A stretch of 64,000 nucleotides of DNA from Natrinema pallidum DSM 3751. Lineage in GTDB: Archaea > Halobacteriota > Halobacteria > Halobacteriales > Natrialbaceae. The notes under the pieces are model-generated. The model was not told the DNA's origin. It searched no databases and saw only the letters and a program-made list of their open reading frames with translations. Numbering within the stretch: position 1 is the first letter of the stretch; each line of letters begins with the position of its first letter. The stretch spans positions 7,945 to 71,944 of the forward strand of contig NZ_AOII01000044.1 of assembly GCF_000337615.1 (NCBI RefSeq), in the 5' to 3' direction. Made by a program: the position numbers and the translations under genes. This document shows positions 27,926-54,913 of this stretch, one piece after another.

Positions 27926-27947
27926 GTAAACGATTATGGTTTAGTAG
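27926..27947 (+). promoter_or_regulatory. nasA promoter with a 16-bp element shared with nirA
   Basis: GTAAACGATTATGGTT (27926-27941) runs straight into a TATA-like TTTAGTAG. The identical 16-mer, again adjoining a TATA box, precedes nirA at 30534. It occupies the BRE/activator position, 114 nt before the nasA GTG. A binding site for a nitrate-assimilation regulator is inferred. The other part of the 313-bp gap after tatC (27742-27925) shows no gene. Confidence 0.7.
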
Positions 27948-28054
27948 TTGTGTCCGTTCTCCTATCCCGTGAATCAGTGAATGATAGTCAGCCGTCTTCC
28001 CTCATTCGGGTGTGGTTGTAACTCACGCATCCTCGTTCGATCCGATACGGCGGG

Positions 28055-30204
28055 GTGGCCGCCGTGACCGATCTCGTGCCGACCACCTGTATGCGGTGTG
28101 CGGTCGGCTGCGGGCACGTCCAGCAGGTCCCGACCGGGGGTACGGGCTCGAGAGCGTCCGCGGCGATCCCGGACACCCGGTCAATCAAGGGCTTGCGTGT
28201 CAGCGCGGCGTCAGCGAAACGGCCAGCCCGGATGGCGAGTGGCTGACCCGGCCGCTCGTTCGCGAGGATGGCGGACTCGTGCCGACGACCTGGGAAGCGG
28301 CGCTTCAGCATGCGGCCGACGGGCTCGGCACCGCGCTCGCCGACGGCGGCGACAGCGTCGCCGTGCTGGGCAGCGGGCAGCAGACGAACGAAGCCGCCTA
28401 CGCCCTGGGCAAGCTCGCCCGCGGCGGCTTCGGTACGCGGTACTACGACGCCAATACGACGCTGTGTATGGCGTCGGCCGTCACAGCGTACTACGATGCG
28501 TTCGGGAGCGACGCGCCGCCGCCGACCTACGACGACATCCCCGAGGCCCAGCGCCACGTCGTCTGGGGTGCGAACCCCGCGGCCGCTCATCCGGTCATGT
28601 TCCGCTGGATCCGTCAATCGGCCCAGCGGGACGACTCCGAACTGATCGTGGTCGATCCCGTCCACAGCGAGACCGCCGCGGCCGCCGACCACCACGTCCC
28701 CCTCGAGCCCGGCGGCGACCTCGCGCTCGCCCGCGCCGTTCTCGCTCGCGTGATCGAGACGGACGGCGTCGCCGAGGACTTCGTCGCCGAGGCGACGGTC
28801 GGCTTCGACGGACTCCGCGCGGACCTCCTCGACGCGGCCGTCGCCGCCGAGATGGCGGGCGTCTCGATGGACGACGTCGACCGCCTCGCGGCGGCGCTCG
28901 AGGAGCCGACACTGCTCTACTGGGGGATGGGAATCAACCAGAGCGTCAACGGGACCGCGGCCGCGGGCGCGCTGATCGATCTGTGCCTCGCGACCGGCAA
29001 CCTCCAGCCGGGTTCGGGACCGTTTTCGCTGACCGGACAGGCCAACTCGATGGGGACCCGCGTCTGCGCTTCGAAGGGAACCTGGCCGGGCCACCGGCCG
29101 TTTACGGAGGGGGACCACCGCCGGGAGGTCGCCGAGGCGTGGGACGTGCCGGTCTCGCGGTTGCCGGACGAGCCGGGCCCGGGGCCGGTCGGCATCGTCG
29201 ACGCGATCGGCGACGACGTCGCGGCCGTCTACGCGGTTGCGACCAATCCCGTCGCGGGCATGCCCGATGCCGCGCGCGTCCGCGAGACGTTCGCTGACGC
29301 GTTCCTCGTCGTTCAGGACGCGTTCCACAGCGAGACGGTCGACTACGCCGATGTCGTCCTGCCCGCGGCGACGTGGGGAGAGTCCGAGGGGACGACGATC
29401 AACATGGAACGGACCGTCTCCCGGGTGCGAGCCGCGACGGAGACACCCAGCGGAGTGCGGTCGGATCTCACGCTGATCGGCCAACTCGCCGATCGCCTCG
29501 TTCCCGGGCTGTCCGACCGCCGGCCGGACCCCGAAACGGTTTTCGACGAGTTCACCGCGCTGACCGCGGGCACCCCGGCCGATTGTTCGGGGATCAGTTA
29601 CGACCGTCTCGAGGCCGAGACGGCGGTCCGCTGGCCGGCACCGGATGCCGGCGCGTCGGGCGGCTACCGGTACTACGAGGCCAACGGGAACGCACCGGAC
29701 GACGTCGCATCGGAATCGGTCGATCCAAGCTGGTCGTTCGACACGCAGTCGGGCCATGCGCGGTTCTCGACCGGTGAGGCCCGCCCGCTTCCAGAACCGA
29801 CGGACGAGACGTACCCGTTCACGCTGACGACCGCCCGCCGCCCGGACGCGTACAACACCGGCGTTCGGACCCGCGAGGACGGACCGCCGACGGCGCGGAT
29901 CAGCCCGGCGACGGCAGCAGCAGTCGCGGCTGAACTCGAGGCCAGAACTGACCGCGAGACCGGCGACACCGAGCGGTACGCTCGCGTCGTCTCTCGGCGG
30001 GCGTCGGTCACTGCCAGACTCGAGGCCGACGAGGCGATTCCTGACGGGGTCGTCTGGCTGCCGATCCACCACCCCGAGGTGAACGATCTCACGCTGTCCG
30101 ATGTCGACCCGCGCTCAAACGAACCCAATTTCAAGCAGTGTGCAGTGCGCCTCGAGCCGCCGCGGGAACGGGACGTCAGGGCGGTCGCGGAAGCGAGCGC
30201 CTGA
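28055..30204 (+). CDS. nasA: Assimilatory nitrate reductase NasA, with apparent frameshift
   Basis: A molybdopterin oxidoreductase of the assimilatory NasA type, reducing nitrate to nitrite in the cytoplasm. The N-terminal 4Fe-4S motif VPTTCMRCAVGCGHVQQ is encoded in the frame starting with GTG 28055, but from TAC 28141 onward the protein (GYGLESVRGDPGHPVNQGLA, with a fourth Cys just after) continues in the next frame. A run of five G at 28136-28140 would restore a single 716-codon frame if it were six. The remainder is intact: NTTLCMASAVTAYYDAFGSD, MDDVDRLAAALEEPTLLYWG, NSMGTRVCASKGTWPGHRP and a C-terminal molybdopterin-dinucleotide domain ending near NFKQCAVRLEPP. Either a sequencing error or a recent mutation removed one base. 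nirA follows; no nitrate transporter lies between them. Confidence 0.85.
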
Positions 30205-30533
30205 ACGCCGATGACGTGATCGACCCCCGAATCAGCGTCAGACCTTTGAGTTCAGGCTTGTCCGACGATCGACTCCGCCGCTGTTTTGCGTGCCGGGTTC
30301 CGGTTTGCCCGCCTGTCGGTTCGAACCCGCTGGTGGACGCGTCCCTCGCGCGCGGCCGCCAACTCCGACCGGAACACTGCACCGACCTGCCACACGGGCG
30401 GACGAACCACGCCGGCAGCGCTTGAAATACCCAATTCCGAGCCCGTTCGACTCGCGATGTACGTCCTTATACAGACCATATCCCATTGGAGATGACACGT
30501 CCGCCCCTGAACCCGGCACAAAAACAAATATAT
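30205..30533. other. Intergenic region between nasA and nirA
   Basis: About 330 bp with no convincing reading frame. GC-rich at first, then AT-richer from 30440. A T-arm-like GGTTCGAACCC at 30321 does not belong to a tRNA: the stem beside it does not pair and no acceptor partner is seen. The nirA promoter lies at its right end. Confidence 0.5.
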
Positions 30534-30555
30534 GTAAACGATTATGGTTATATAG
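30534..30555 (+). promoter_or_regulatory. nirA promoter with the shared 16-bp element
   Basis: GTAAACGATTATGGTT (30534-30549) is identical to the element at 27926 and is followed by a TATA box TTATATAG (30548-30555). It lies 102 nt before the ATG at 30651. The sequence further upstream (AAAACAAATATAT) is AT-rich in both promoters. Confidence 0.75.
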
Positions 30556-30566
30556 TTTAAGAACAT

Positions 30567-30622
30567 GGGTTTGAAACGTGTATTACGGCATGTTTGGAAG
30601 CCAAACCCGGCGTTTCAACCCC
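30567..30622 (+). promoter_or_regulatory. Nested inverted repeats in the nirA leader
   Basis: Outer arms GGGTTTGAAACG (30567-30578) and CGTTTCAACCCC (30611-30622) pair over TTGAAACG/CGTTTCAA, with a one-base bulge before the CCC. Inside, GTTTGG (30592-30597), AAG, CCAAAC (30601-30606) forms a perfect hairpin. The block spans the predicted transcription start, so it could be an operator, or, if transcribed, a leader structure. Confidence 0.5.
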
Positions 30623-30650
30623 GATCGTACGGTCGACGAGGTGGGTCCCG

Positions 30651-32558
30651 ATGGCGCATAACAAAGAAGCGCTCAAGGAGGGCTGTTACGGCGACGACGT
30701 TCGCGAGCACATCCTCGAGTTCGCGGCGAACGGCGGCTACGAGGCCATCCCAGAGGACGAACGCGACACGTGGTTCACCCGATTCAAGTTCTGGGGGCTG
30801 TTCCACCAGCGCGACGGGCAGGAATCGTACTTCATGATGCGGCTGACTAACGCCAGCGGCGTTCTGGAGCCCGGCCAGCTCCGGGCGATCGGCGAGGTCG
30901 CCCGCGAGTACGCCAACGGCCCCGTCGCGAACCCCGAGTTCGGCAACGGCTGGATCGACCTGACGACGCGCCAGTCGGTACAACTCCACTGGCTCGAACT
31001 CGAGGGCGTCCCCGAAATCTGGGAGGAACTCGAGTCGGTCGGCGTCCACTCTCGCTCGGCGGGCGGGGACACGATGCGCAACATCTCGGGCTGTCCGCTC
31101 CACGGGAAAGCCGAAGAGTTCGTCGCGGCGGGTCCCCTGCTCGAGCGCTTCGAGGAGGAACTTCGCACGGACGACGCGCTGGCGAACATGCCCCGGAAGT
31201 TCAACATCAGCGTGTCGGGCTGTACGGTCGGCTGCGCACAGGACTCGCTCAACGACATCGGGTTCGAGCCGGCGACCAAGGAGATCGGGGTCTCCGGCGA
31301 AGCCGGAGGCTCGTCGGACTCGTCCGACGGTGGCGAGGAAGTCCGCGGGTTCAACGTCCGGATCGGCGGCGGACTCGGCGGTCGCCAGCCCCGCGCCGCG
31401 ACGCCGCTCGACGTCTTTGTCCGCCCGGAGAACGCCTACGAGGTCGGCCGTGGCTTCGTCGAGTTGTATCACGACTACGGCGACCGCCAGAACCGCTCGA
31501 AGAACCGGGCGCGGTTCTTCGCCGAGGACTGGGGGATGGCAAAGATCCGCGAGACGCTCCAGGCGGAGTACGTCGACTTCGAGATGCACACCGCGGGCGA
31601 GGACGTCCGCGAGGAGTACACCTACAACGCCGGGAAACCGGTCGAGGCGGGCCAGCATGACCACGTCGGCGTCGGCGACCAGAAAGACGGGGGAAACTAC
31701 GTCGGCCTGAGCGTACCCGTCGGCCGGCTCCCGGCCGAAGACGCCATCGAACTGGCCGATCTCGCCGACGAGTACGGCTCCGGCGAGGTCCGGCTCACCC
31801 GGCGTCAGAACCCCGTCATCGTCGATGTCGCGGCCGACGATCTCGAGGCCCTACTCGCGGAACCGCTGCTCGAGACGTACCCCGCCGAACCGAGCCCCTT
31901 CGAGCGCGGCGCGATGGCCTGTACGGGAACGGAATTCTGCTCGATCGCACTGACCGAGACGAAAGCGCGGATGGCCCGCATGCTGCGCTGGTTCAACGAG
32001 AACGTCGAGTTGCCCGACGACGTCGGCACGATCAAGATGCACTACTCCGGCTGTACCGCGGACTGCGGGCAGGCGATGACCGCCGATATCGGCCTACAGG
32101 GGATGCGCGCCCGCAAGGACGGCGAGATGGTCGAGGCCTTCGACATCGGCGTCGGCGGCGGCGTCGGCGAGAACCCCTCCTTCATCGACTGGGTGCAACA
32201 GCGCGTGCCGGCCGATGAAGCGCCCGGTGCGATCCGGAACCTGCTCGAGGCCTACGCGGCCCACCGGGCGTGCGAGACTCCGGAGGAGTCTCGGGAGGAC
32301 GGCGACAGCGAGGCGCGAAGCGCCTCGAGCCGTGCGAGCGGGCAGGGCCCGCGAGCAGAAGCCGTCCGGGGCCAGTCGTTCCGCGAGTGGGTCGATGCCA
32401 CCGCCGAGGAGCAACTCGTCGAGTTCTGTGTGCCCGAGGAGACGGACTTCGAAGCGCCCTACATGGCCGACGCCAAGCAGTCGTGGTACCCCTTCGCCGA
32501 GGGTGACTCCGCCGCGGCCCCAGCGGCCGACGACTCCGCGGCCCCATCGGACGACTGA
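30651..32558 (+). CDS. nirA: Ferredoxin-dependent assimilatory nitrite reductase NirA
   Basis: A 635-residue siroheme/4Fe-4S reductase that turns nitrite into ammonium with ferredoxin as donor. Cluster and siroheme ligands are in place: Cys424 and Cys430 in ACTGTEFCS, and Cys468 and Cys472 in SGCTADCGQ. Half-domain signatures include TTRQSVQLHWLELEGVPEIW and FNISVSGCTVGCAQDSLNDI. ATG 30651 (MAHNKEALKEG) is preferred; an in-frame start 19 codons upstream falls within the leader repeats. Two stretches look inserted against the family: SGEAGGSSDSSDGG after the first half-domain, and a 35-residue RACETPEESREDGDSEARSA-type low-complexity segment near the C-terminus; both coincide with clusters of DNA hairpins. 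Works downstream of NasA in nitrate assimilation. Confidence 0.92.
   Translation: MAHNKEALKEGCYGDDVREHILEFAANGGYEAIPEDERDTWFTRFKFWGLFHQRDGQESYFMMRLTNASGVLEPGQLRAIGEVAREYANGPVANPEFGNGWIDLTTRQSVQLHWLELEGVPEIWEELESVGVHSRSAGGDTMRNISGCPLHGKAEEFVAAGPLLERFEEELRTDDALANMPRKFNISVSGCTVGCAQDSLNDIGFEPATKEIGVSGEAGGSSDSSDGGEEVRGFNVRIGGGLGGRQPRAATPLDVFVRPENAYEVGRGFVELYHDYGDRQNRSKNRARFFAEDWGMAKIRETLQAEYVDFEMHTAGEDVREEYTYNAGKPVEAGQHDHVGVGDQKDGGNYVGLSVPVGRLPAEDAIELADLADEYGSGEVRLTRRQNPVIVDVAADDLEALLAEPLLETYPAEPSPFERGAMACTGTEFCSIALTETKARMARMLRWFNENVELPDDVGTIKMHYSGCTADCGQAMTADIGLQGMRARKDGEMVEAFDIGVGGGVGENPSFIDWVQQRVPADEAPGAIRNLLEAYAAHRACETPEESREDGDSEARSASSRASGQGPRAEAVRGQSFREWVDATAEEQLVEFCVPEETDFEAPYMADAKQSWYPFAEGDSAAAPAADDSAAPSDD
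31292..31329 (+). repeat. Two adjacent perfect hairpins inside nirA (first insert)
   Basis: CTCCGGC-GAA-GCCGGAG (31292-31308, 7-bp stem) is followed by CGTCGGAC-TC-GTCCGACG (31312-31329, 8-bp stem). They encode the extra SGEAGGSSDSSDGG segment of NirA. Confidence 0.75.
32273..32352 (+). repeat. Three successive perfect hairpins inside nirA (second insert)
   Basis: CGAGACTCC-GGA-GGAGTCTCG (32273-32293, 9-bp stem), GAGGCGC-GAA-GCGCCTC (32310-32326, 7-bp stem) and GCGGGC-AGG-GCCCGC (32338-32352, 6-bp stem) stand within 80 bp. They encode the low-complexity segment near the NirA C-terminus. All three have three-base, purine-only loops. Confidence 0.8.
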
Positions 32559-53940: not shown

Positions 53941-54124
53941 GTCGACAGAACGCGGTGCCCGCTCCTATGCGCTTATTGAAATAACACGCCACTTCCGGTT
54001 CGTTTTTCTCCCGAAGACGGGTTTGCGTTCACTCGCCCCCCGTCGAACCGAGCCGGTATCTCCTCCGTCTTGTCCCGGTCACATACCGGCCATATATTTA
54101 CCATCAAGTGACCAACAGCTGTCC

Positions 54125-54913
54125 ATGACGGAGCTAGGCGAACTCGGTCTCTCGAGTTACGAGGAAAAGGCCTACCGAACACTACTCGTAACGGGAGCAG
54201 TCACCGCAACCGAACTATCCGATATCAGTGGTGTTCCGAAAGGCCGAATCTATGACGTACTCAACGGCCTCAGTGCCCGCAAACTGATTCGCTTGCAATC
54301 GACCAATCCACAACAGTACGTCGCTGAAGAACCCCAAACCGTCGTGGACCGACTCCTGGCCGAACGGGCGTACGAACTCACGCAGGAGTGGGACCGCTAT
54401 CGGCGGCTGGCCGAGACAGTCCGTTCTGACCTTTTTCCCTCACCACCGAGCGAGAGTAGCCTCTGGCTCGGCTCACTCGGGAGTGAAGAGATGGCGTTGG
54501 CGCTGCAACAACATATCGGCACCGCAGAGAGCGACGTCTACGCGACGCTCGGCAAACCCTACGATGACGCCTCCTGGGAGAGACTGCAACCGGAGTTCGA
54601 GGCGTTTTTCGAGGGCATTGCTCCCGATGTCTCCCTCTCCCTCATTTTGAGTGAACCAGTACTTACGACGCTCCCGGAAACCTTCCCGAAACTACTGGAG
54701 GACGAACCGATCGACGTCACCGTCAGGACGATTCCCGACCCTGTCTTGTCGTTCGACGTGATTGACAGCCTGGTGACGACGATCGACATTCCGCATCCAC
54801 TGTCCAGTGACGACAGGCTCGGCACAGTGGGAATCAAAGATTCGACGGTCGTGAACGAATTCGACCGACTCTTCCAGTCACAGTGGGAGATCGCGGAGCC
54901 GTTGCTTAATTGA
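54125..54913 (+). CDS. TrmB-family transcriptional regulator
   Basis: A 262-residue regulator. A winged-helix DNA-binding domain (about 8-70: LGLSSYEEKAYRTLLVTGAV, ATELSDISGVPKGRIYDVLN) is followed by a coiled segment (LLAERAYELTQEWDRYRRLA) and a C-terminal effector region of the TrmB type (SSLWLGSLGSEEMALALQQH). TrmB family members sense sugars or other small molecules. Its divergent placement against the SMR transporter and near the flavoprotein suggests control of those genes (inference). ATG 54125; upstream sequence with CATATATTTA about 35 nt away is a good promoter. Confidence 0.88.
   Translation: MTELGELGLSSYEEKAYRTLLVTGAVTATELSDISGVPKGRIYDVLNGLSARKLIRLQSTNPQQYVAEEPQTVVDRLLAERAYELTQEWDRYRRLAETVRSDLFPSPPSESSLWLGSLGSEEMALALQQHIGTAESDVYATLGKPYDDASWERLQPEFEAFFEGIAPDVSLSLILSEPVLTTLPETFPKLLEDEPIDVTVRTIPDPVLSFDVIDSLVTTIDIPHPLSSDDRLGTVGIKDSTVVNEFDRLFQSQWEIAEPLLN

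Follow-up and report, generated by a model that had tools for sequence, protein, structure and literature searches.

A dyad element shared by the nasA and nirA promoters of Natrinema pallidum, probably an operator of nitrate assimilation, and the short reading frames that follow it

The regulation of nitrate assimilation in haloarchaea has been described as unknown (PMC8143581), and a locus of Natrinema pallidum DSM 3751 raises the question of whether two genes of this pathway are switched together. The locus lies in a 64,000-nucleotide (nt) stretch of contig NZ_AOII01000044.1 (positions 7,945 to 71,944, forward strand), which was analyzed as a whole and is called the window here. In the window, the assimilatory nitrate reductase gene nasA and the assimilatory nitrite reductase gene nirA are preceded by the same 16-base sequence, GTAAACGATTATGGTT. 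Judging from the comparisons described below, this element very probably serves as operator for a dimeric regulator that is dedicated to nas/nir and has its gene elsewhere. The promoter features are as follows.

27926..27941, + strand: nasA element GTAAACGATTATGGTT (sequence; relatives' alignment)
27927-27943, + strand: nasA dyad TAAACGATTATGGTTTA, centre 27935 (sequence, symmetry scoring)
27940..27947, + strand: nasA TATA box TTTAGTAG, which overlaps the dyad's right half (sequence; aligned in relatives)
30534..30549, + strand: nirA element GTAAACGATTATGGTT, dyad centre 30543 (sequence; relatives' alignment)
30548..30555, + strand: nirA TATA box TTATATAG (sequence; aligned in relatives)

An initial annotation of the window had reported two exact 16-mers, each entering a TATA-like sequence and without a further copy in the window, and had proposed that they co-regulate nasA and nirA. 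A sequence search located the exact 16-mer on the + strand at 27926-27941 and 30534-30549 and confirmed that both copies continue directly into the TATA box (TTTAGTAG at nasA, TTATATAG at nirA). No other copy was found in the window even when three mismatches were tolerated; at ≤3 mismatches, 2 matches were obtained versus 0.06 expected, and 0 of 100 shuffles reached 2. In the 3.9-Mb genome, the two copies were the only matches at 0-1 mismatch, and the third-best match, with 2 mismatches, was in a locus (L003) containing no nas gene. The full 16-base identity is nevertheless less telling than it looks, because the two bases before GTT vary among relatives (GTAAACGATTA-NN-GTT), and the conserved unit reaches into the TATA box.

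The promoters of nirA and nasA were then compared at nirA loci, of which 57 were haloarchaeal and one, an outlier, was bacterial. In the Natrialbaceae, the element preceded nirA at practically every locus and nasA at nearly every locus bearing that gene, with the consensus TTTGTAAACGATTA-NN-GTT followed by ATA at nirA or TAG at nasA. Haloferax, Halogranum, Halegenticoccus, and Halobium carried instead a wider form, (C/A)AACGATTAGNGTTWTA, or a near variant of it. An AAAA tract was conserved 11-14 nt upstream of the element in the alignment of relatives. Across 29 Natrinema genomes, all 30 matches to GTAAACGATTANNGTTWWR with ≤1 mismatch were at nasA or nirA, as assigned by homology search where the locus was available and otherwise by the 2.6-4 kb spacing to the partner site, while Natrinema loci without nas, nir, or tatC genes yielded 2-mismatch matches exclusively. 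The element was 114 or 117 nt before nirA in 17 of the 18 Natrinema genomes with a nirA ortholog (≥91% identity), and none of the remaining 11 genomes had a nirA-type site; one of these 11 (G179) has a nasA that carries its element. In 99 Haloferacaceae genomes (roughly 340 Mb), the wider pattern was matched 16 times, 14 of them at nasA (10) or nirA (4). As all Natrinema matches with ≤1 mismatch and 14 of the 16 Haloferacaceae matches are at these two genes, the element behaves as a dedicated two-target operator; a generic promoter element or the site of a global regulator would behave differently. The same site thus stands at several promoters of one pathway, is rare elsewhere, and keeps a fixed position relative to the core promoter in relatives. 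The scattering and lack of conservation that would have spoken against the proposal did not occur, and conservation, position, and specificity across the genome now give strong support to co-regulation of nasA and nirA.

A recurrent 2-mismatch match, ATAAACGATTACGCTTTTG, was observed in five Natrinema genomes (including L101 and L109) upstream of a small open reading frame (ORF; MNDYTAP...). These loci contain neither nas nor nir genes, and the match is possibly a separate dyad site. The initial annotation had also suggested looking for the motif at nitrate transporter genes. No element was found upstream of this genome's NarK gene, which was rejected as a third target. This gene, 70% identical to Halogranum NarK, lies outside the window on the minus strand of the same contig (C44:103036-104223; L133). 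Its upstream region contains CCGAACATGTGGG, which resembles the semi-palindrome of denitrification promoters (NarO), and a stretch that is also present in L003 and looks like a mobile-element remnant.

The element itself shows imperfect dyad symmetry (TAAACG-N5-CGTTTA), most clearly at nasA. For nasA of the Natrialbaceae, a dyad pairing score of 0.89 was obtained at centre +9 from the first base of the element (background mean, 0.26), and the best centre was at +9 to +9.5 in three of four promoter sets, namely, Natrialbaceae nasA, Natrialbaceae nirA, and nasA of the other families. The half-site centres are approximately 11 bp apart, which is one helical turn. The dyad covers the expected position of the transcription factor B recognition element (BRE), its right half enters the TATA box, and its centre would be near -35 of a transcription start predicted at +43/44 from the first base of the element. 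Such a position raises the question of whether the element is nothing more than a core promoter, BRE and TATA box, of unusual conservation and without a dedicated regulator. It does span the BRE/TATA region, and CGATT plus TTAT or TTTA loosely fits the haloarchaeal consensus (BRE CGAAA, TATA TTWT; PMC4983044). However, a great many genes carry generic core elements, whereas each genome has the extended sequence twice, and from family to family it stands before the same two genes. The conservation also extends left of the BRE into GTAAA and is dyad-symmetric. A core promoter alone is therefore an improbable explanation.

The operator would work as follows. A dimeric helix-turn-helix (HTH) protein encoded outside the window would bind TAAACG-N5-CGTTTA near -35, where transcription factor B (TFB) contacts the BRE, and would switch nasA and nirA jointly according to nitrogen supply, with activation expected without ammonium, with nitrate, or in starvation. 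At this position, the regulator would have to act directly on TATA-binding protein (TBP) and TFB. Activation is somewhat favored over repression but is no more than plausible, as haloarchaeal activators and repressors can both act at the expected BRE position, over which the element lies. Like activator sites of the GvpE/Bat type, the element is a bipartite site at a fixed distance beside TATA/BRE. The opposite sign, a repressor bound to the same operator and blocking TFB/TBP in ammonium excess, is a serious although less probable alternative. A site covering BRE and TATA box is a classic position for archaeal repressors, and here the dyad spans the expected BRE position and enters the TATA box with its right half. 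In addition, the nasABC promoter of Haloferax (Hfx.) mediterranei is off, and the genes silent, on ammonium, and it is on with nitrate or in starvation (PMC8143581). In the same promoter, a 5-nt change of TAGAT to GGCCC in a segment termed region 2 abolished activity on nitrate (PMC8143581). Haloferax relatives read TAAACGATTAGGTCTTTATGG or TAAACGATTAGGGTTTTATGG at the position of the element, from which we guess that the published TAGAT may fall inside it; if so, the loss rather than gain of expression would argue for an activator. Moreover, the sequence at the BRE position deviates from CGAAA; such a deviation would be expected if the promoter depended on a factor, and it again speaks against a repressor.

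As for the regulator, it had been proposed to be absent from the window. This holds as far as tested, since in a comparison of 29 genomes the sole full HTH regulator found, a TrmB-family gene at 54059-54913, was not distributed in step with the nas genes; closer relatives (66-68% identity) were present in only 6 of the 28 other Natrinema genomes, both with and without nirA. NrpR, the nitrogen repressor of methanogens, was rejected because the PF01995 family is absent from the genome, while the same search detected NrpR in Methanocaldococcus jannaschii and Methanosarcina acetivorans. The NarO/denitrification consensus CGAAYATDKTYG was rejected on direct reading, as GTAAACGATTATGGTT does not fit it. 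For an Lrp/AsnC protein of the HFX_0246 type, the gene does not track the sites, since all 29 Natrinema genomes have relatives of it, among them the 11 that lack a nirA ortholog. Lrp, a global regulator, has been proposed for nasABC of Hfx. mediterranei, and the element could be its binding site. Lrp was pulled down with that promoter, the pull-down being promoter-wide (PMC8143581), and in Halorientalis marina an Lrp gene (NF041396) adjoins glnK-like and amtB-like genes close to nirA (L052 9201-11475; on the opposite strand, approximately 400-2700 bases downstream). However, Lrp relatives are found with and without nirA, more than two sites would be expected for a global regulator, and the published ideal site, AGAATTTATTCT, is unlike the element (PMC8143581). 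Lrp is therefore an unlikely occupant of this site.

Several observations weigh against a dedicated operator. For nirA outside the Natrialbaceae, the symmetry is weak, the score at the same centre being 0.43 and ranking third only, and the element could there be read as an asymmetric site. The element overlaps the core promoter, so part of its conservation may reflect core-promoter function. Halorubrum nirA has something else in place of the element, and the system is thus not universal. Among the Haloferax genomes examined, none gave a recognisable Hfx. mediterranei nas locus from which the region 2 mutation could be placed on the element. Finally, no regulator gene clusters with nas among the predicted neighbours in the loci examined.

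The distance between promoter and gene was also examined, and here the initial annotation was amended. Its gap of 102 nt to nirA (start ATG 30651) stood, whereas its gap of 114 nt to nasA did not, the homology-supported GTG at 28064 being 123 nt after the element. It also lacked the dyad symmetry, the upstream ORFs that fill these gaps in both leaders, and a frameshift in nasA, all of which were found here. The genes and leader features are listed below.

28064..30204, + strand: nasA, assimilatory nitrate reductase (homology; family confirmed on an intact relative)
30651..32558, + strand: nirA, ferredoxin-dependent assimilatory nitrite reductase (Pfam NIR_SIR, NIR_SIR_ferr)
27969..27980, + strand: expected nasA transcription start region, GTG AAT CAG TGA (placed by TATA spacing; offset conserved in relatives)
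27981..28067, + strand: nasA upstream ORF encoding MIVSRLPSFGCGCNSRILVRSDTAGWPP, its stop TGA overlapping the nasA GTG as GTGA (sequence)
30578..30661, + strand: nirA upstream ORF encoding VYYGMFGSQTRRFNPDRTVDEVGPDGA, its stop TAA overlapping the nirA start (sequence)

nasA is a molybdopterin oxidoreductase, and the intact relative from Natrinema altunense matches the haloarchaeal NasA model NF041323. In this assembly, nasA has a 1-nt frameshift, with one C missing in a C-run near 28117 compared with Natrinema altunense (window 28064-28140), which breaks the frame behind the N-terminal Cys motif and puts the N-terminal part with CMRCAVGC and the rest of NasA into different frames; it is either an assembly error or a real pseudogene. 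The best NCBIfam match of nirA is ferredoxin--nitrite reductase, below the model cut-off.

At most nasA and nirA promoters, an ORF of 16-33 codons opens approximately 24 nt past the TATA box, and its stop overlaps or abuts the main start. In the window, the nirA upstream ORF begins with a GTG 44 nt after the first base of the element and is leaderless by position; at nasA, the frame of the GTG 43 nt after the first base ends in this strain at a TGA, and the nasA upstream ORF of Natrinema usually starts 12 nt later, at an ATG. Among nirA leaders, a GTG or ATG 43-44 nt after the first base of the element (start codons at 42-45 nt being counted) and about 24 nt after the TATA centre, with a frame of 16-28 codons ending at or near the nirA start, was found in 30 of 42 (shuffles: mean 1.2, maximum 5). 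A start codon at 42-45 nt opened a frame to the nasA start in 10 of 30 nasA leaders (shuffles: mean 0.6, maximum 3). Frames that end at the main start and are open for at least 20 codons were present in 40 of 42 nirA and 30 of 30 nasA leaders, compared with shuffle maxima of 31 and 25, respectively. Stops were avoided in the frame of the upstream ORF (column-shuffle P of 0.0005 for nasA and 0.05, 0.0045, and 0.0035 for three nirA groups), and the remaining leader frames contained 5-21 stops each. In contrast to the frame, the peptide showed no detectable selection; the ratio of nonsynonymous to synonymous variation (pN/pS) was 0.8-1.0 in most groups and indistinguishable from column shuffles, and a functional leader peptide was therefore rejected. 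A frame kept free of stops around a peptide without detectable selection points to translational coupling. With stop and start codons that overlap or abut, and with an open upstream frame, the leaders show the arrangement of a termination-reinitiation gene pair.

The leaders are most simply read as a device for translational coupling, carried on a leaderless mRNA. To judge from the distance to the TATA box, the upstream ORF is probably on a leaderless transcript; transcripts would begin approximately 24 nt downstream of the TATA box, on or near its start codon, and ribosomes would get to nasA and nirA by termination-reinitiation at the overlapping or abutting codons. Halorubrum nirA is without the element but keeps, 25 nt after a TATA box, a 21-codon ORF whose overlap with nirA reads TGATG or TAATG, and the coupled upstream ORF appears more widespread than the operator. 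In Halorubrum loci L040, L041, L043, L044, L053, L056, and L065, an ORF encoding M(T/A/D)H(H/Y/R)SAN...DR and a stop was observed 65 nt before nirA. The nasA leader also contains a near-perfect palindrome, GTGTGATT-GTA-AATCACAC, at about 28011-28030 of the window, which is present in L016 and other Natrinema leaders and encodes CDCKSH within the upstream ORF. The hairpin folds in L016 (z -1.64) and is degraded in the window; the palindrome is a possible second operator, RNA hairpin, or peptide motif.

The conservation of upstream ORFs at both genes, and their retention at Halorubrum nirA without the element, could also mean that control is mainly translational, with the element setting promoter strength only. 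However, the peptides are without significant purifying selection, RNA folding of the window's two leaders was no better than that of shuffles, and published reporter work gives transcriptional control. Mainly translational control is accordingly improbable.

Compared with known systems, the element shares pathway and promoter with region 2 and Lrp HFX_0246 of Hfx. mediterranei nasABC, where a short promoter site is needed for expression on nitrate (PMC8143581); that work concerned one promoter in one strain, whereas the present dyad is defined and common to nasA and nirA over many genera, and the two sites may or may not be the same. The denitrification semi-palindrome CGAAYATDKTYG/NarO is likewise a short semi-palindrome across promoters of one haloarchaeal nitrogen pathway, but its sites differ in sequence, vary in their distances, and belong to anaerobic respiration (PMC10062603). 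The upstream activating sequence of GvpE is likewise two-part, beside BRE/TATA, at a fixed spacing, and probably bound by a dimer; unlike the element, it consists of two 8-nt parts 4 nt apart, is adjacent to the BRE and not over it, and serves gas-vesicle genes with a known activator (PMC4390858). In Hfx. volcanii, leaderless mRNAs account for 72% of protein-coding transcripts and upstream ORFs of 15-31 amino acids occur (PMC4983044), and termination-reinitiation at overlapping genes has been demonstrated (PMC6728339). The leaders described here are like those cases in their overlapping genes and short upstream ORFs, and differ in that a very short ORF, leaderless by position, is conserved before the same two genes across families. 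A description of the element or the upstream ORFs was not found in a literature search of incomplete coverage. NrpR of methanogens also controls nitrogen genes from an archaeal dyad operator, whose sequence differs from the element.

The element provides a narrow target, one dyad at two promoters in many genera, that is suited to mutation and to DNA-affinity capture of the regulator. Annotations and reporter fusions that take the 100-nt leader as untranslated probably overlook a coupled upstream ORF. Tentatively, operator and leader may form a two-layer unit across haloarchaeal families, in which an operator at the BRE position serves a pathway-specific regulator and a leaderless ORF then gates the enzyme gene by reinitiation. 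If this doubtful but possible reading is true, the nitrogen state would be read at transcription and again at translation.
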